From Salipiger pentaromativorans (GTDB lineage Bacteria; Pseudomonadota; Alphaproteobacteria; Rhodobacterales; Rhodobacteraceae), in assembly GCF_024721115.1 (NCBI RefSeq), contig NZ_JAMDHK010000011.1, forward strand, positions 1,055-65,054: DNA of 64,000 bases. Direction: 5' to 3'. How positions within the stretch are numbered: the stretch's first letter is position 1; the number at the start of each line of letters is the position of its first letter. A program made the translations under genes and the position numbers. Under the pieces are notes generated by a model. The model did not search any database. It was not told where the DNA came from and was given only the letters and a program-made list of their open reading frames with translations. This document shows, one piece after another, positions 400 to 7,836 of the stretch.

Positions 400-1089
400 T
401 CAGCCGTCGCCGGGTTCGGTCAGGCGGGTGATCATATCGTGAATACCCTTGGCGCCCCCGCCCAGCACAAGCGTCGTGACGACCACGTCGAGCAGCGTCA
501 GAAGCGCGTGCTGCATGCCGGGCAGGGTGTTCGGGTCGGGCAGTTGCAGGACCGGCGCCAGCAGCCGGTAACCGCCCATGGCGATGGCCCCGCCGAGAAC
601 GGTCAGGCAGATGGTGGAGAGGTATTGCTTCTGGATGGTCAGCGCGGCCGCCTGCTCGGTCCGTGTCTCGATGCTGCGGCTGTCGCCCATGGCGAGCGCC
701 GACAGGCGCTCGGCGCTGCCGCCGGCGGACAGGAAGGTCATCCGCTCGTCGGTCGTTTCCAGCATGTCGAACACCGCCTTCTCGCGGGCCATCGCGTCTT
801 CCTGAGATTGCCGCATGACCGCCTGACGCGCCCGGATCTCGGCTTCCTGCGGCCCGCAGATCACCTGAAGCAGCACCTCGACCGCGCGTTCCAGCAGCAG
901 CGCGATGGCCAGCGCCGACCCCAGCGCGACGACAAGCTGCTGCGCGAGGGTGCTGTAGTCGAGCTGGAGAACCTCGACCTCCTGAAAGCCGAGTGTGCCG
1001 GCCAGCAGGATGAGCAGCGCCACGACGCCAAGACGCCGGGAGGCGCGTTTCGGGACAAGGGCGTTCGGGGTCATTCCCTGGGACGGCAT
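400..1089 (-). CDS. four-helix membrane protein of unknown function
   Basis: The 229-residue protein is not recognised. Hydrophobic segments lie at about residues 20-38, 49-68, 157-178 and 197-216. Between the second and third is a charged, Glu/Gln/Arg-rich stretch of about 85 residues (VICGPQEAEIRARQAVMRQS and onward) that probably forms a cytoplasmic helical domain. There is no signal peptide cleavage site. It is the last gene of a minus-strand unit, 33 bp after the subtilase, so it is likely co-expressed with the protease and the haloperoxidase-like protein. A role as membrane anchor, sensor or channel for that unit is inference only. Confidence 0.7.
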   Translation of the reverse strand: MPSQGMTPNALVPKRASRRLGVVALLILLAGTLGFQEVEVLQLDYSTLAQQLVVALGSALAIALLLERAVEVLLQVICGPQEAEIRARQAVMRQSQEDAMAREKAVFDMLETTDERMTFLSAGGSAERLSALAMGDSRSIETRTEQAAALTIQKQYLSTICLTVLGGAIAMGGYRLLAPVLQLPDPNTLPGMQHALLTLLDVVVTTLVLGGGAKGIHDMITRLTEPGDG

Positions 1090-1122
1090 GGCAGAGCTCC
1101 TCTCGTGATCGGTCGGGACTGG

Positions 1123-2454
1123 TCAGGACTGGGGCGCTGCGGACCAGAGGTCGGCGATCGTGAGCAGCGCGGGGGGCGCGCCTGCCGCCTTTTTCGGCAC
1201 CGTCACCGTTTCCTGAAGCTGGAGCGCCAGCGCGATCAGCCCGCCAGCGATGGCGGTCGCGCCCGAGGTGCCGCTGAAGCGACAGAAGAGCGACCCCAGA
1301 TCGAGGTGAAGATCGGCCGCCCTCGGTTCCCATTCATGCGGCGAGGGGTTGTAGCCGAAGGGCCCCGGAACGTCGGTCGAGATCAGATCGAGGAACGAGA
1401 CCTCCTCGCCGCCGGAGGCGTTTGCCGGCAGGCCGAAGGGCTTGAAGCTGTAGGGGTCGAGGCGCACCGCCTCGCGATCGAGGCGGCCCGCGTCTCCGCT
1501 GGGGGCATAGACATCGGCCTCGGCGGTGGAATAGGGAGCCAGACCGCCTTCCGAGGTCAGCGCGCCGACCGACACGATCAGGTTGGTCGGGTCCGACAGC
1601 CGCGCGGGGTAGGTGGGGGCCGTTTCGCCGGTGTTGCCCGCCGCGCAGACGATATGGGTCTGCTGGCCGATCTCGCGGATCTTGTCGTCGAGCGCCTGCC
1701 AAGCGCTTTGAACGGCCGCATCGATCGCAAGATCGGCGTCGAGCGCCGGCGCGCTGTTGGCATCGGGCGCGGGGATGCCGCCAGCGGGGGGAAAGACCGG
1801 TTCGAGTGCGGTGGCGAAGACGATCACATCGGCGCCGATGGACTGGGCGTAGGTGAAGGCGTTTTTCAGAACCACGGGGTTCGGCTCGGACGTGGTGCTG
1901 ATCGGCACGATCCGGCAATAGGGGTTCACCCCGGCGAAGGGCAGATCCTCGATGGTGCTGCTGGCCGGCTGGCCGGCGTAGCGCGCGGGCCTGTGCAGGC
2001 GGATGCCCGAGGCGGGCGGGCGCCCGCCGATCAGCCCGGCCATCGCCGTCCCGTGACCGGAAAAGGCCCCGCGCACGGCGGCACGCTCGGGCGCCTGGGG
2101 CAGTTGCGCGGCTGCGGGCAGCGCCTGCCGCTGCGCCAGCTCTGGCGGGGTGAGCGCCGCGTCGGGCACCGGAAAGACGCCTTCGGGATCGACCGAGAAA
2201 TCCGCCAGGCGCGCGCGATCGACGGCATCGTAGAGACAGGGGTTTTCCCAGGCCACGGAGGTGTCGATCAGCGCGACGGTCACGGTTTTCTGCGCCGCTT
2301 CGGCGGCGTCCCAGGCCGGGCTGGCAAAGCTCTGGGCATCGCTGACCACGCCGATCTTGAGCAGCGGCCAGAGCGCCGGATATTCCGGATAGCTGTCGAC
2401 GCCCTCGGGCTCTCGTGTGGTCGGGTTGAGGATGGGGGTGTTCGAGGTAACCAT
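1123..2454 (-). CDS. subtilisin-like (S8) serine peptidase
   Basis: The 443-residue protein carries a complete subtilase triad: Asp64 in VALIDTS, His134 in GHGTAMAG and Ser397 in FSGTSGATA. An AAGNTG segment supplies the usual oxyanion Asn. No signal peptide or long pro-domain is evident, so it is probably cytoplasmic. The start at 2454 is chosen because GGGAG stands about 8 bases upstream and it leaves 13 bp after the preceding gene; the longer frame from 2496 would overlap that gene. It sits between the haloperoxidase-like gene and a membrane protein in one operon. Intracellular subtilases often process a partner protein; what this one cuts cannot be told from sequence. Confidence 0.88.
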   Translation of the reverse strand: MVTSNTPILNPTTREPEGVDSYPEYPALWPLLKIGVVSDAQSFASPAWDAAEAAQKTVTVALIDTSVAWENPCLYDAVDRARLADFSVDPEGVFPVPDAALTPPELAQRQALPAAAQLPQAPERAAVRGAFSGHGTAMAGLIGGRPPASGIRLHRPARYAGQPASSTIEDLPFAGVNPYCRIVPISTTSEPNPVVLKNAFTYAQSIGADVIVFATALEPVFPPAGGIPAPDANSAPALDADLAIDAAVQSAWQALDDKIREIGQQTHIVCAAGNTGETAPTYPARLSDPTNLIVSVGALTSEGGLAPYSTAEADVYAPSGDAGRLDREAVRLDPYSFKPFGLPANASGGEEVSFLDLISTDVPGPFGYNPSPHEWEPRAADLHLDLGSLFCRFSGTSGATAIAGGLIALALQLQETVTVPKKAAGAPPALLTIADLWSAAPQS

Positions 2455-2467
2455 GCGTCCGTCTCCC

Positions 2468-3670
2468 TCAGCCCAGCCATTCCAGGCGGGCGGCATTCAT
2501 CTGTCTTTCCAGCACGATCTCGAGCGCGGGCAGAACGCGGCGCGCAAGTTCCTGCCCGGCCAGCGTGTCGGCGGCGTAATGCAGCCCCGCCCATTCCCGG
2601 TTCTTGGCGATCTCGTCGCAGGAGCGGAACAGCGCCGGAATGCCCGGATGTTCGGGCAGGGTGCGTGACACGATCAGCGCGATGGCGCGCGACTGGAAGG
2701 CGTGGTTCGACGGGTAAGACGGGTGCCAGGGAACGGGCACGAAAGGCGTGAGCCCGGGCGACAGCTCGCTCGGCCGCAGCACATCGAAGCGCGCCTTGTA
2801 GTGCAGGCCGATTTCCTCGGTGATCGCCGCCGTGGAGGTGATCAGCCGCGCCAGCGCCTCGATCCCGCCGGCATTGGTCGCGCCCAGCGGCACGACATAG
2901 CCCTTCAGCTCGAGATCGACCTCGCGCAGAATCGCCGCCCGCCGCCATTCCAGCTCGGGCCGGGTGCGCAGCAGCTCCAGCCGTTCGCGCAGCACCGGGA
3001 TCTCGTGTTCCAGCAATTCGGTATAGGGCCTGGGCAGCGTCAGCGACAGGTCCTTCCAGAGCGCCTTGACCTCGGGCAGATGCAGCATCTCGCGCTCCTG
3101 CCAGGGCGGGGCGATGTCGGCTGCGGGATATTCGAACCCGTCGGTATCGAAGGTGCTCCCCCGGTTGCCTCGGTTCCCCCGGTTTCCGCGATTGCCCCTG
3201 TTGCCGCGATTGCCCCGGTTCCCCCGGTTGCCTCTGTTCCCGCGGTTGCCGCGATTGCCCCGGTTGAGGCGGCCGCCGATCACGGTTTCGCCCGACGGGG
3301 CGCTGAGCGCCAAGGCCGCCCGGGGCGCGGCGCCGAGCGCGCCACCCTCGATGGCAATCTCAAGATCGCCCATCCCGATCCCGGCCACCTCTTTCGCCAG
3401 TGCGGGCGCCCCGGCGACCCGGCGCGCGTCGATCTTGCCCAGTTCGGTCAGCTCGGAGAGCATCTCGGGCGCGAAGGCATCGGGCGTCGCGCGGTAGGTT
3501 TCAAGCGCCGCCGAGAACGGCTGGCCTTCCAGCGTCTCGTCCTCGGCGAGCACCTCGGCGAATTTCGACAGCGGCAGCCGCATGCTGCCGGTTCTCCGCT
3601 CGAGACGGATGTCGTCCTTCCGGACGATCAGCGCGCGGCCCGCGAGCCGCTGCGAAATGGTCGATGACAT
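2468..3670 (-). CDS. PAP2 / vanadium-haloperoxidase-like protein with (Asn-Arg-Gly)12 linker
   Basis: This is a 400-residue protein. Residues 1-135 form an N-terminal domain I do not recognise, residues 136-171 are twelve NRG tripeptides, and residues 172-400 form a helical catalytic domain. The three motifs of the PAP2/vanadium haloperoxidase superfamily are present: K292-x6-R299-P300, S321-N322-H323 (where PSGH is usual), and R358-x5-H364-x3-D368. All phosphate/vanadate ligands are therefore retained. No signal peptide or membrane helix is seen, unlike membrane PAP2 lipid phosphatases and closer to soluble haloperoxidase-like enzymes. Substrate, and whether it acts as phosphatase or haloperoxidase, are unknown. 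It lies 17 bp after the SARP regulator and 13 bp before the subtilase. Confidence 0.8.
   Translation of the reverse strand: MSSTISQRLAGRALIVRKDDIRLERRTGSMRLPLSKFAEVLAEDETLEGQPFSAALETYRATPDAFAPEMLSELTELGKIDARRVAGAPALAKEVAGIGMGDLEIAIEGGALGAAPRAALALSAPSGETVIGGRLNRGNRGNRGNRGNRGNRGNRGNRGNRGNRGNRGNRGSTFDTDGFEYPAADIAPPWQEREMLHLPEVKALWKDLSLTLPRPYTELLEHEIPVLRERLELLRTRPELEWRRAAILREVDLELKGYVVPLGATNAGGIEALARLITSTAAITEEIGLHYKARFDVLRPSELSPGLTPFVPVPWHPSYPSNHAFQSRAIALIVSRTLPEHPGIPALFRSCDEIAKNREWAGLHYAADTLAGQELARRVLPALEIVLERQMNAARLEWLG
3158..3265 (-). repeat. 12 x 9-bp tandem repeat coding (NRG)12
   Basis: Twelve consecutive 9-bp units each encode Asn-Arg-Gly. The units differ at wobble positions (Asn AAC or AAT, several Arg codons, three Gly codons), so the amino acid pattern is conserved better than the DNA. 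That argues for selection on the peptide, or an old expansion, rather than fresh slippage. The repeat joins the N-terminal and catalytic parts of the haloperoxidase-like protein and adds twelve positive charges. Confidence 0.95.
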
Positions 3671-3687
3671 GTCTTCTTCTCCCCTTG

Positions 3688-5526
3688 TCAGCGCAGTCCC
3701 GCGCGCTTCAGACCTGCGGTCAGTCGTTCCGGAAACTCCGCCACCCGGGGCAGATGCCCGGCGTCGAGAATTTCGGTCGTGCTGGTGCCCGGTTGCAGGA
3801 GCTGTAGCTGCCGCACCAGCCGGTGGCCGTCATTCGGATGCCCGAGATGCGCCATCGCCGCCGCCGTATAGCGGATGGCCGAGGTAAAGCGCGGCATGCG
3901 GAACAGCGCCCGGTTGCCGTATTTCGCCGCCGCGACATAGTCGCTGCGGGCGAAGGCGATGATCGCGGCGGTGGTGTCGTAGGTGTAGCGGATCGGGCTG
4001 TGCATCCCCAGGGCCTGGGCCCGCTGCGCGGCAATGGCGCCGGCATCCAGTTCGCCGAGGCTGAACAGGCACAGCGCAAGCTGATCCCAGCAAAAGGCCT
4101 GCGCCGGAGCGATTTCGACTGCCTTCTTCGCCAGATCGAGCCCCAGCTCGGCTTCGCCCGCGAGATAGGTCAGTGCATAGCCCGACATCGAGAGGCTGAA
4201 GGCGTGAAACCGGTCGGGCCGCAGCGCATCGCGCGCCAGATCCCGGACCGCATCGGGTGCGGCAAAGCCGCTTTTTCCCAGCTTCTCGCCTGTCCGGATC
4301 GTCGACAGATAGCACAGGAGCGCATGGTGGATCGGCGAGCGGCGATCCTCCACCGCCGTTTCCAGCATGGTCTGTAGCCGGTCGAGCCGGTCCTGCCGCA
4401 GATGAAACATCGAGACGATCGCCTGATAGGGCGACAGGACCTCGGTCTCGCCATAGCCGTCGTTTTCCGCAAGCATCGGGACAAGCTCTTCGACAAGTCG
4501 CAGAATATCGTGATCGCTGGTGGCGCCCGCCGCGGCGGCGGGCGAGGCGATGCCGCTCAGCTCGCCGGTCCAGAGGATCTCGCCGGATTGCGTGTCGAGG
4601 AGCTGGAAGGAGACCTGATTGCGGGCGCGATGGCAGCTCGCGCGGATCATCAGGCGCGGTCCGTTGCTTTGATCCAGCTCCGGTCCGCCGCGACCGTTGA
4701 GGCCGAAATTGTCGCGATAGTCGAACAGACGGAGCGCCAGAACGCCGGAGAGCGCGTCAAGAAACCGGTCGAGCGCCAGATTGGCCGACAGCTCGGACGA
4801 GGGGTCGCGCCCGTCCGATCGGCAGGGCAGCAAGCCGATGGCGACCGCCGCCGGCGGGGTGATCATCGGTTCGATCAGCGCCAGCAGGGCGCTGGGCTCG
4901 AGCGCCTGCTCGGCGGGCGGCGGTTCCTGGTTCAGCCGCTGATCGCGCAGCCAGGTTTCGAACCCCTCGGCGCCCCGCAGGCTGAGGTCGATGCCTTCGA
5001 GGAAAGCCGCATCGCGCCGGGCCGAGGGGGCGAGGCCGGCGGTGATGCGGTCGGGGTCAATCCGGATACTGTAGCGGTCGGCGATGATGCAATCGGGCCC
5101 GAGCGGCGCCAGATCCTTGCGCAGCTCGCTCAGCGCGGTGCGCAGGCTGGCGGCGGATTTGGCGGGGTCGGATTCCGCCCAGAACATCTCGATGAGAGAT
5201 TGTCGGGTGCAGATCTGATCGCGCGACATCAGCAGCACCGCCAGCATGGCACGGCGCAGCTGTCCTTTGGGCGTGACGTCCTGTCCGGTGGCGGTGACCA
5301 CACGGAACGGCCCGAACATGCGCGCCTTGGCGGTCACGAGACCGGTCTGTTCAAATATCGGGTCAGTTGTACTTGCCAATGGCCCGCACACGAATGAAGG
5401 ATCATCTATCGCGCAAAGGCTATTGTCTTGAAGCGGCGCTGTATAGGCCTTCTTTGACCTTGCGGAAGCTCTTCGGCCCAAGAAACCTGTGGTCTCTGGC
5501 AATCTGGCCGTCGATTCTTGCATCAT
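3688..5526 (-). CDS. SARP/BTAD-type transcriptional regulator with TPR region
   Basis: The 612-residue protein has an OmpR/PhoB-type winged helix at about 70-165 (MFGPFRVV...GQLRRAMLAVLL...SLIEMFWAE...LRTALSELRKDL), the arrangement of SARP/BTAD activators. A middle part (about 225-360) resembles TolB-N/adenylate-cyclase-associated regions (ILWTGELSG). The C-terminal part (about 380-600) has TPR-like helices (EIAPAQAFCWDQLALCLFSLGELD). It heads the minus-strand unit and most likely controls it. The start at 5526 has AGGA 5 bases upstream; ATG 5319 (MFGPF) is an alternative that would remove a poorly structured N-terminus. No receiver domain or phosphorylation site is seen, so its signal is unknown. 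Confidence 0.8.
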   Translation of the reverse strand: MMQESTARLPETTGFLGRRASARSKKAYTAPLQDNSLCAIDDPSFVCGPLASTTDPIFEQTGLVTAKARMFGPFRVVTATGQDVTPKGQLRRAMLAVLLMSRDQICTRQSLIEMFWAESDPAKSAASLRTALSELRKDLAPLGPDCIIADRYSIRIDPDRITAGLAPSARRDAAFLEGIDLSLRGAEGFETWLRDQRLNQEPPPAEQALEPSALLALIEPMITPPAAVAIGLLPCRSDGRDPSSELSANLALDRFLDALSGVLALRLFDYRDNFGLNGRGGPELDQSNGPRLMIRASCHRARNQVSFQLLDTQSGEILWTGELSGIASPAAAAGATSDHDILRLVEELVPMLAENDGYGETEVLSPYQAIVSMFHLRQDRLDRLQTMLETAVEDRRSPIHHALLCYLSTIRTGEKLGKSGFAAPDAVRDLARDALRPDRFHAFSLSMSGYALTYLAGEAELGLDLAKKAVEIAPAQAFCWDQLALCLFSLGELDAGAIAAQRAQALGMHSPIRYTYDTTAAIIAFARSDYVAAAKYGNRALFRMPRFTSAIRYTAAAMAHLGHPNDGHRLVRQLQLLQPGTSTTEILDAGHLPRVAEFPERLTAGLKRAGLR

Positions 5527-6129: not shown

Positions 6130-6543
6130 TCAGGCCCGCGCCTCCGCGCCGGCGTAGGCGGCATAGACCTCCTTGGCGGCGAACAGCCCGTTCAGGGCCG
6201 CCGGAAAGCCGGCATAGACAGCCATCTGCATCAGGATCTCGGTAATCTCGGCTTGCGACAGCCCGACGTTCAGCCCCGCCTCGATATGAACCTTGAGCTG
6301 CGGCTGCGCGGTGCCCATCGCCGCGAGCGCCGCAATGGTGGCGATCTCGCGGTCGCGCAGGCTCAGCCCCGGGCGGGAATAGATGTCGCCAAAGGGGAAC
6401 TCGAACAGATAGGTGGCGAAATCGGGGGCGATGTCGGCCAGCGCATCGACGACGTTCCGGCCAGCCTGCCCGTCGATGGCGTCAAGGGCGCGCCGCCCGC
6501 GCTCTGCTCTGGTCTCCTGCGGTGGAGTATCGTGTATCGTCAT
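6130..6543 (-). CDS. carboxymuconolactone decarboxylase family protein
   Basis: The 137-residue protein belongs to the CMD/AhpD-like family (LSLRDREIATIAALAAMG, then HIEAGLNVGLSQAEITEILMQ and AGFPAAL). Family members include gamma-carboxymuconolactone decarboxylase and AhpD-type peroxidase partners. The AhpD CxxC pair is absent here, so the decarboxylase-like or uncharacterised branch is more likely. The start at 6543 is preferred because AAGGA stands upstream and the family N-terminus follows; the longer frame to 6711 runs through the MerR gene in another frame. The gene overlaps the end of merR by 62 bp, so the two are probably translationally coupled and controlled by the MerR protein. Confidence 0.85.
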   Translation of the reverse strand: MTIHDTPPQETRAERGRRALDAIDGQAGRNVVDALADIAPDFATYLFEFPFGDIYSRPGLSLRDREIATIAALAAMGTAQPQLKVHIEAGLNVGLSQAEITEILMQMAVYAGFPAALNGLFAAKEVYAAYAGAEARA

Positions 6544-6907
6544 GGGGTTGCGTCCTTTTCTCCGCTTCGACATAGGTGTCGATCTTGGTGTCGAGGACGA
6601 GAAGGCAGGCTTGCAGCTCGGAGAGATGCGCGCGGACCCGGTCGCGATGCGCTTCCAGAAGGGCACGGCGCGCGGGACCGGTGTGATCGCCCTCCGCGCG
6701 CAGCGCCGCATAATGCAGCATCTCGCGGATCGGCATGCCGGTGGTCTTCAGGCGGTCGAGAAAGGCGATCCAGACAAGGATCGACTCGTCGTAATCCCGC
6801 CGCCCGCCGGCATCGCGATCGGCAAAGGGCAGCAGCCCGATCCGCTCGTAGTAGCGGATCGTGTGGGCCGACAACCCGCTGCGTTTCGCAAGCTCGCCGA
6901 TTTTCAT
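6482..6907 (-). CDS. MerR family transcriptional regulator
   Basis: The 141-residue protein begins MKIGELAKRSGLSAHTIRYYERIGLLP, a textbook MerR winged helix. A dimerisation helix follows (ALLEAHRDRVRAHLSELQ). No metal-binding cysteine cluster is present, so it probably senses an organic or redox signal rather than a metal. A promoter with the 19-bp spacer typical of MerR control lies directly upstream, which indicates autoregulation together with the downstream CMD-family gene. The last 62 bases overlap that gene. Confidence 0.92.
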   Translation of the reverse strand: MKIGELAKRSGLSAHTIRYYERIGLLPFADRDAGGRRDYDESILVWIAFLDRLKTTGMPIREMLHYAALRAEGDHTGPARRALLEAHRDRVRAHLSELQACLLVLDTKIDTYVEAEKRTQPHDDTRYSTAGDQSRARAARP

Positions 6908-6937
6908 GACACCCTGCTTCTCATCAAGACGCCCCCG

Positions 6938-6968
6938 ACCCTAGGGGTTTGAGCGCACTCTAAGTCAA
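6938..6968 (-). promoter_or_regulatory. MerR-type promoter with 19-bp spacer and central dyad
   Basis: Reading leftward, TTGACT (6968-6963) and TAGGGT (6943-6938) are separated by 19 bp instead of 17. The spacer contains the dyad TT-GAG-tgcg-CTC-AA form (GAGTGCGCTC core). Overlong spacers with a central dyad are the hallmark of promoters that MerR-family proteins activate by DNA distortion. The site is about 31 bp before the merR start. Confidence 0.75.
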
Positions 6969-7121
6969 GGGCCGATTTTCGGCGCTCAGCGCCGTCGCAG
7001 CGGGGTCCGCCGCGCTCTGCCTGCCTGTCCATGTTTTTGACCGCCATACCAGCTTGCCCAAACGCCGCTGCCCGGACATCTTGCTCAACGCGATGGTTCA
7101 GGGCGTGCTTGTCAGGGGCGT

Positions 7122-7272
7122 TGAACCGCACCGGGTTTGCCGGAGGCTCCAACTCGTGAGAAGGATGGAGCATCATGAGCAAGACGACGAACAGGTTTTC
7201 CCCCGAGGTGCGTGAACGCGCTGTGCGGATGGTTTTGGACAACGAGGGCCAGTATGTCTCTCGCTGGCAGGT
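7122..7272 (+). mobile_element. IS3-family remnant: terminal repeat plus start of orfA
   Basis: Bases from 7122 (TGAACCGCACCGGGTTTGCC) resemble the left end of IS3-family elements. They are followed by an ATG at 7175 that starts [20 protein letters not shown], the N-terminus of an IS3 OrfA (helix-turn-helix) protein. Similarity stops after SRWQ near 7272; the rest of orfA, all of orfB and the right end are missing. The scar ends about 20 bp from the end of the P-loop ATPase gene, marking a past insertion and deletion. Confidence 0.75.
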
Positions 7273-7290
7273 TCTCCGTCCATCTGGAGA

Positions 7291-7836
7291 CTACGGTCGG
7301 ATCGCCAATTGCGCACATACAAAGTCGGCGCGTGTTGCAACGTCGGCGCGCGTCAGCTCCGTGATTTGGTATCCGAGGGCGGCGTATGTCTCTCGCATGA
7401 CGGTGCATGTTGCTTCCGCCTCGGCAGGGCTCTGCTTGCGCTCGCTGTCCTGTGCAAAGATCTCGTCCCAATAGGGCGCCAGAAAGACGCGGCGGTTGTA
7501 GCGGGTCGTCCTGGCCGCTGCGGTGACGTGCGGCGGAACAGGCAGGCCGCAGAGCGTCAGGTAGCCAAGGATGTCGGGAATGCCTCGGTCGAAGATCACG
7601 GGGCCTGGTAACGCCTGTGCGGCGCTGTCGGCGCTCAGGTCCCGTTCCAGCATCCGTTCGGCATAGGCCATGCGATCCGCCCACGGAAGGGCGTCTCCGC
7701 AGCTGGCCATCTCCTCGCGAATGATCGCGCGGCCGGATTCGGGAATGTTCTGAAAGCCACGGCGGGCAAGCTCGGTGATCAGGCTGGTTTTGCCCGCACC
7801 GGGACCGCCCGTCACGACGAAGAAATGGTCGCTCAT
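7291..7836 (-). CDS. small AAA/P-loop ATPase (AAA_28-like)
   Basis: The 181-residue protein starts [20 protein letters not shown] with a Walker A motif at residues 9-16, followed by [15 protein letters not shown], a Walker-B-like Asp segment. Layout and length fit the AAA_28 group of single-domain P-loop proteins, which resemble small nucleotide or metabolite kinases. The substrate is unknown. It is a single gene whose end lies 18 bp from an IS3 scar, so the C-terminus (QLAIRP) could have been altered by that event, although total length is normal. No partner gene is apparent. Confidence 0.8.

Follow-up and report, generated by a model that had tools for sequence, protein, structure and literature searches.

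The PAP2 superfamily includes the class A non-specific acid phosphatases (7f17, PhoC, PhoN), with the signature PSGH and SR, and the vanadium-dependent haloperoxidases. Multi-copy precursors of short peptides are represented by yeast alpha-factor and the fungal dikaritins (cut by the subtilase Kex2), and in the borosins a precursor is fused to its own methyltransferase. Repeats in proteins usually drift, or are young and repetitive in their DNA. The locus analysed here lies in a stretch of 64,000 nucleotides from Salipiger pentaromativorans (contig NZ_JAMDHK010000011.1, positions 1,055 to 65,054; hereafter the window) and holds genes for a SARP/TPR regulator, a PAP2 enzyme with a perfect tandem repeat tract, a subtilase of family S8 and a membrane protein. 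Regulator, enzyme and protease make up a cassette that is apparently a widespread and undescribed bacterial gene trio; it was not found in the literature searched, namely open-licence PMC papers by their listings and abstract openings.

The cassette enzyme is like the class A acid phosphatases in fold and in the catalytic K, R, H, R and H, but tract, regulator and protease partner accompany none of eight ordinary-looking members of that group, and the window enzyme has PSNH and NR in place of PSGH and SR, with no signal peptide seen. The vanadium-dependent haloperoxidases share superfamily and ligand residues with it, but match it less well in fold and sequence. Alpha-factor and the dikaritins resemble the tract in their tandem identical short peptides, their lineage-specific sequence and their processing by a subtilase, which is only predicted here, whereas the cassette units abut without spacers, are 2-5 residues long and are fused to a PAP2 enzyme. 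In borosins, too, a substrate peptide is fused to an enzyme with a protease nearby, but that enzyme is unrelated, and modification of the present tract is hypothetical. The window tract, with Gly at every third position, scores as Pfam Collagen over residues 138-171 (28.8 bits, cut-off 27.2), as in bacterial collagen-like proteins; since relatives show periods of 2, 4 and 5 and units free of Gly, a collagen helix is not what the family has in common, and this identity was rejected. Peptide quorum sensing of the RRNPP(A) type, the subject of PMC9765709, also combines a TPR DNA-binding regulator with a short peptide and a proteolytic step. Here, by contrast, the peptide would form repeats embedded in an enzyme of Proteobacteria, and its unit does not follow the TPR half of the regulator in the more divergent of the two clades discussed below.

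The three genes form a conserved cassette. Scanning genome contigs with the window PAP2 protein alone gave no relative, and with a PAP2 alignment (A3) 167, of which 80 were kept; SARP, PAP2 and S8 follow in this order on one strand in 77 of the 80 loci, and contig ends truncate the remaining three. The same order was present in four plasmid relatives (from Palleronia, Rhizobium leguminosarum 248, Aliiroseovarius and Phyllobacterium), the Palleronia regulator being annotated as hypothetical and recognised by profile match. In a family-wide sample of about one genome per genus, queried with A3 without its tract columns, 127 of 394 genomes had a PAP2 match with E no higher than 1e-8; 100 stretches were taken down the ranking to about E 9e-20, places already in the set being passed over. 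In a phylum sample, queried with an alignment that includes the tract columns (A7), 60 of 398 genomes had a match. Among its best 30 places all 22 with a SARP or S8 neighbour carry a tract, 13 of them in genomes new to the analysis, and the eight without such a neighbour, which are the ordinary-looking acid phosphatases mentioned above, carry none. Five named plasmid loci also carry tracts, including those of the betaproteobacteria Paraburkholderia (GGA) and Caballeronia (GGV).

Of 194 unique PAP2 loci, 169 had 2.5 kb on both sides, and in 162 of these the exact tract was no shorter than 8 residues. A SARP gene lies within 1.5 kb of the tract-bearing PAP2 gene in 156 of the 162, and farther off in the stretch in the remaining six; a protease stands beside it in 156 (146 S8 and 10 papain-like C1), and at L229 S8 is farther off than the distance rule allows. 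The samples overlap, in that identical contigs occur under two handles and 9 of the 22 cassette loci of the phylum sample are genomes already counted or the window itself. Duplicates (identical PAP2 ends or domains) were removed for the pairwise-unit, covariation and 162-locus counts and kept in the 80-locus order count, the reading of the family-sample loci, the 183-tract codon count and the 79-unit census.

These counts bear on the initial annotation, made from the window sequence, which had described a four-gene unit forming one operon and had named rare co-occurrence of the genes in other genomes as a ground for refutation. That condition fails for regulator, PAP2 enzyme and protease, which are found together widely, and the unit stands for these three; the membrane gene is optional: it follows S8 in 6 of 80 loci (L059, L062, L063, L077, L079 and L092). 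A single operon would fit the window layout, where four open reading frames follow one another on the minus strand from 5526 to 400 with the intergenic gaps of 17, 13 and 33 bp originally described, but it is no general rule, since PAP2, S8 and SARP are not all on the same strand in many loci of the divergent clade. At L045-L048, S8 is on the opposite strand.

The enzyme of the window (2468..3670, minus strand, 400 aa) scores 14.1 bits with Pfam PAP2, under the gathering score of 27.2, and its assignment draws on alignment and structure as well. An alignment of ten sequences, the window's among them, shows no variation at K292, R299, S321, H323, R358 and H364, and the catalytic set K-x6-RP, PS(G/N)H and R-x5-H-x3-D is kept in all 149 aligned loci. 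The third position of PS(G/N)H is Asn in 84 of 84 loci of clade A, to which the window belongs; the 65 loci of the divergent clade D have Gly (60) or Ala (5) there. In the AlphaFold model the PAP2 domain at residues 190-400 (2468..3103) is predicted with confidence, pLDDT being mostly above 90, and its best Foldseek match is 7f17_B (TM 0.76 by target length). By sequence and fold the nearest solved structures are class A acid phosphatases, followed by haloperoxidases. The complete PAP2/vanadium-haloperoxidase ligands read initially are all kept, but haloperoxidase was dropped as the main label, and "class A acid phosphatase-like" fits better.

The NRG linker that had been singled out as unusual is indeed the odd part of this protein, and proves to be one case of a family-wide perfect tract. 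In the window it comprises (NRG)12 at residues 136-171 (3158..3265), perfect as protein with 8 different DNA units among the 12. Across the family 79 different units of 2-5 residues occur among 183 tracts, a set restricted to five or more units in exact repetition, which excluded shorter and imperfect arrays. They include NR, NK, NRG, NRD, LHKG, GR, SR, SK, AK, TK, AQ, GHE, GNQ, GTQ, GSQ, GWE, GYD, ENW, NSF, NSS, NHT, EAV, DAR, HGNS, NGGM, DGAV and GGGAG, in arrays of 5 to 20. Tracts of at least 14 residues are confined almost wholly to the enzyme: 180 of 202 PAP2 proteins have one, against 0/195 SARP, 0/174 S8, 0/8 C1, 0/4 membrane and 1/16 haem peroxidase proteins. A counterpart for the tract was found neither in the cassette partners, where a doubled unit occurs four times in 3 of 365 proteins and is a dipeptide each time, nor elsewhere in the genome, three consecutive exact units being present once per genome only in 7 of 7 genomes, the window's own included (units NRG, GHE and ENW). 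At L248 (3453-5328) a tractless PAP2 relative lies beside a SARP gene and an open reading frame that by eye is S8-like but short, possibly a decaying cassette.

None of the 183 tracts has all its DNA units identical. In a test on one tract per unit, matches between adjacent codons fell short of the expectation from codon usage in neighbouring genes for 67 of 79 units (mean 0.30 against 0.43), and when the codons present are held fixed their order still avoids matching neighbours in 68 of 79 (mean z -1.15). A perfect peptide over codons scrambled beyond expectation indicates selection at the protein level, and the units thus seem to be kept perfect by selection on the peptide; a fresh microsatellite is ruled out by the codon tests. 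Close relatives vary in copy number by whole units. Six Phaeobacter plasmids from three species have 5, 6 or 7 units and four Rhizobium plasmids, likewise from three species, have 7 or 8, and all changes inside these units are synonymous. Such variation, and adjacent-codon identity above expectation in 32 of 183 tracts, would be compatible with a neutral, mutational origin, in which a short repeat arises by slippage in an unconstrained linker and the protein tolerates anything. This explanation was already disfavoured and is considered very improbable in view of the codon results, of the constancy of the unit in all 193 close pairs compared and of the cassette partners, which have no such tract.

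The unit is held within lineages and is almost free between them. Where two PAP2 domains are at least 70% identical they share it in 193 of 193 pairs; the figure is 513 of 543 pairs at 60-70% identity, but only 48 of 5391 pairs below 50%. On a tree of PAP2 and SARP at least 51 unit changes fall among the 65 loci of clade D; 10 fall among the 84 loci of clade A. Sister units may differ by one residue replaced in every copy, as in GAQ/GGQ, SAY/NAY and GGV/GGI. Units that are perfect, arbitrary, lineage-specific and selected imply that each does the same job and that its sequence is fitted to something that varies between lineages.

In homotypic assembly, the main rival to the explanation developed below, perfect tails would stack in any register in the manner of silk, polar zippers or polyglycine and pack PAP2 enzyme and protease into a body, lineage-specific units preventing mixture with foreign proteins. 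The units abound in G, N, A, S, Q, H and T, have no Cys and only one Pro among 79, and their perfect periodicity and free copy number suit stacking without register; in the seven genomes with a single array, self-pairing would be the sole option. However, half the residues of the (NR)n, (NK)n, (TK)n and (SR)n tracts carry a charge, the window tract is unstructured in the AlphaFold model (block pLDDT 36-51), and it is left unexplained why the unit follows S8. Homotypic assembly is judged possible but doubtful.

The best candidate for the varying thing that the unit must fit is the partner protease. The S8 protein of the window (1123..2454, minus strand, 443 aa) scores 67.2 bits with its Pfam model (cut-off 21.8). 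As the initial annotation had stated, its triad is intact and no signal peptide is seen by eye: D64, H134 and S397, together with N274, are invariant in 13 of 13 sequences, and across 149 loci Asp, His and Asn are kept in all and Ser in 148, with one gap. Its structural model is that of a general subtilisin, and leader proteases of ribosomally synthesised and post-translationally modified peptides (RiPPs) are among its structure matches without standing out. In one clade the S8 position is taken by a non-homologous, papain-like C1 protease, identified by Gln, Cys, His and Asn invariant in 8 of 8 aligned sequences and by profile matches to the PDB. Tract, PAP2 and S8 are also fused into a single chain in 4 of 4 long open reading frames, each next to a SARP gene, which implies that the two enzymes work together. 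Two of these fusions lie behind what by eye appears to be a twin-arginine signal, and the enzymes probably act outside the cytoplasm, at least where fused.

Taken with the selection on the unit, these observations lead us to read the tract, tentatively, as a tail of many units recognised by the protease, its most likely fate being cleavage into identical short peptides. The cassette would be a matched pair of enzyme and protease under its own regulator, with each tract unit an equivalent recognition site for the partner protease. Cutting would yield many copies of one short lineage-specific peptide and free or alter the PAP2 enzyme. The units would stay identical because all are used, and the non-repetitive DNA would protect the array from collapse. 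The SARP/TPR protein would turn the cassette on and may sense its products. We infer the cutting, the product and the role of the regulator alike. The suggestion of the initial annotation, that the subtilase may cut its operon partner at the linker, gains indirect support from a protease position that is hardly ever empty (156 of 162 loci have one), from its C1 occupant in one clade, from the four fusions and from the covariation in clade D.

That the protease recognises the tract, as predicted here, is supported by covariation. With unit similarity measured in a single way, as shared residues, the Spearman correlation with unit similarity among the 65 loci of clade D was 0.259 for S8, 0.177 for PAP2 and 0.147 for SARP. 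Given PAP2, partial values were 0.196 for S8, 0.056 for SARP and 0.009 for the SARP TPR half, and were reached in 0, 34 and 137 of 300 permutations, respectively. The difference S8 minus SARP exceeded zero in 300 of 300 resamplings of taxa, and the S8 partial value stayed at 0.176-0.215 when any single locus was dropped; by gene orientation it was 0.110 in the group with convergent S8 and 0.242 in the other. Among 524 S8 columns the highest value (r 0.237, against 0.148 for the second) belongs to the column three residues past the catalytic His. His at this position goes with Gly in 38 of 45 units, Ala with Gly in 0 of 9 and other residues in 6 of 11, and Ala arises by eye at three places in the tree, each with Gly-free units.

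The same evidence of co-occurrence, fusion and covariation also speaks for a tethered inhibitor, in which the tract plugs the cleft of the partner protease like a substrate until a signal removes the plug, the repeats raising its local concentration. One good site would be enough for this, and the identity of all 5 to 20 units would remain unexplained; we hold the inhibitor to be improbable.

Several observations weigh against a protease-cut tail. In the covariation, kinship was handled solely by conditioning on PAP2, and in the convergent-S8 group the plain correlation is 0.133 for S8 and 0.143 for SARP. In clade A, PAP2 itself correlates best with the unit (0.774), and given PAP2 the SARP TPR half reaches 0.375 against 0.367 for S8, a pattern that points either to some part played by the regulator as well or to common history. 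The His/Ala column was chosen after the scan. Only 2 independent His/Ala pairs stand on supported branches, nearly always both in favour, so that significance is impossible, and for His against any other residue the 9 pairs divide on average into 3.4 in favour, 1.0 opposed and 4.6 that show no difference; with so few independent pairs, mostly without difference, the column is a lead and not proof. No S8 or C1 gene is present in the stretch at five of the 162 loci (L197, L200, L205, L206 and L226), nor at L208, which is outside that count for its short flank. Tracts are imperfect at L099, L116, L179, L180 and L202, several NK loci hold only a short exact part, and units such as EAV, NR and GGGAG have no obvious cleavage residue in common. 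Finally, a peptide product alone does not explain the constant fusion to PAP2.

A further possibility gives the peptide a reader. The repeat would be the precursor of a peptide of 2-5 residues, or of a few units, cut out by its matched protease, with the SARP/TPR regulator or neighbours as readers; the unit would be a species password in a Gram-negative peptide-code circuit, and PAP2 both carrier and output. We consider this unlikely. The regulator (3688..5526, minus strand, 612 aa) is probably a SARP/AfsR-like winged-helix protein with a C-terminal TPR region, whose structure matches are AfsR (8hvr_I, E 2.3e-5), EmbR (2fez, E 0.0029) and consensus TPR proteins. Trans_reg_C scores 24.1 bits on it, below the Pfam cut-off of 26.2; an AfsR-family model covers residues 69-166 only, with a score far under its cut-off, and the BTAD domain gave no Pfam match at E up to 1. 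A receptor role for SARP-TPR is not supported in clade D, on the partial value of the TPR half given above, and is conceivable in clade A, where the value is the 0.375 already noted.

SARP regulators occur in antibiotic clusters. This lends some colour to a RiPP-like, self-modifying precursor, in which the tract would be a multi-copy core peptide fused to a modifying PAP2 domain, and the protease would release a small natural product under SARP control. Also in its favour, an aKG-HExxH-type peptide beta-hydroxylase (58.8 bits, cut-off 40) lies directly after S8 in R. leguminosarum 248 (L032:8436-10825), together with a gene annotated as thiamine phosphate synthase, and an animal-type haem peroxidase homologue lies within 4.5 kb in 16 of 162 loci (L031, L040, L041, L050, L059, L062, L122, L168, L188, L190, L203, L217, L231, L251, L253 and L258; Pfam-confirmed in L031 and L050 only). 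Against it, a search of the window's own genome found no HExxH hydroxylase, the units have no modifiable residue common to all, and among the flank clusters no transporter was seen to recur, no search being aimed at transporters. Such a precursor appears quite unlikely.

Other neighbours are particular to certain unit types. In nine NR-type loci (L055, L058, L060, L065, L069 and L071-L074) two small-protein families are found in common upstream of SARP, for example at L072:2279-2701 and L072:2607-3035. One of these small proteins, read in L065, L071 and L072, has an acidic leader and a cationic, Cys-containing C-terminal part, and to judge by its sequence looks like a processed antimicrobial-type peptide. 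These nine loci also share a second, distinct S8-like protein, judged by eye from a single member. Seven LHKG-type loci (L098-L101, L104, L106 and L108) have a lipoprotein and a TPR-plus-barrel protein upstream of SARP on the same strand, a pair that by eye resembles a surface lipoprotein with its assembly factor.

In the window the cassette is followed by the optional fourth gene (400..1089, minus strand, 229 aa), a putative four-helix membrane protein with hydrophobic segments at 20-38, 48-66, 160-178 and 195-213. Upstream, on the minus strand at 6133-7836, are a carboxymuconolactone decarboxylase, a MerR regulator and an AAA_28 ATPase, and a tRNA lies at 8081-8009. Of the two transposon scars supposed initially, identified by eye only, neither short stretch gave a Pfam match: at 1-385 the end of a short open reading frame, possibly a transposase remnant, abuts a DUF2237 gene, whose match (148.4 bits) begins at profile position 19 of 115 in a searched stretch that began at base 89, and at 7175-7474 an open reading frame has an IS3-type transposase-like start. 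An anti-phage system was rejected: none of the four window proteins matched a PADLOC-DB family at E up to 1, and the window PAP2 protein had no match in phage records.

The cassette thus differs from the usual fate of protein repeats in that up to 20 identical tiny units are perfect as protein and anti-repetitive as DNA and occupy a constant position in a constant cassette, with a unit almost free between genera. The pattern demands an explanation, be it a peptide product, a protease code or self-assembly, any of which would, as far as we know, be a new use of a PAP2 enzyme. Named carriers include Phaeobacter gallaeciensis DSM 26640, P. inhibens, Rhizobium leguminosarum and Paraburkholderia phymatum STM815, and a selected unit that differs between lineages suggests a species-specific peptide code.

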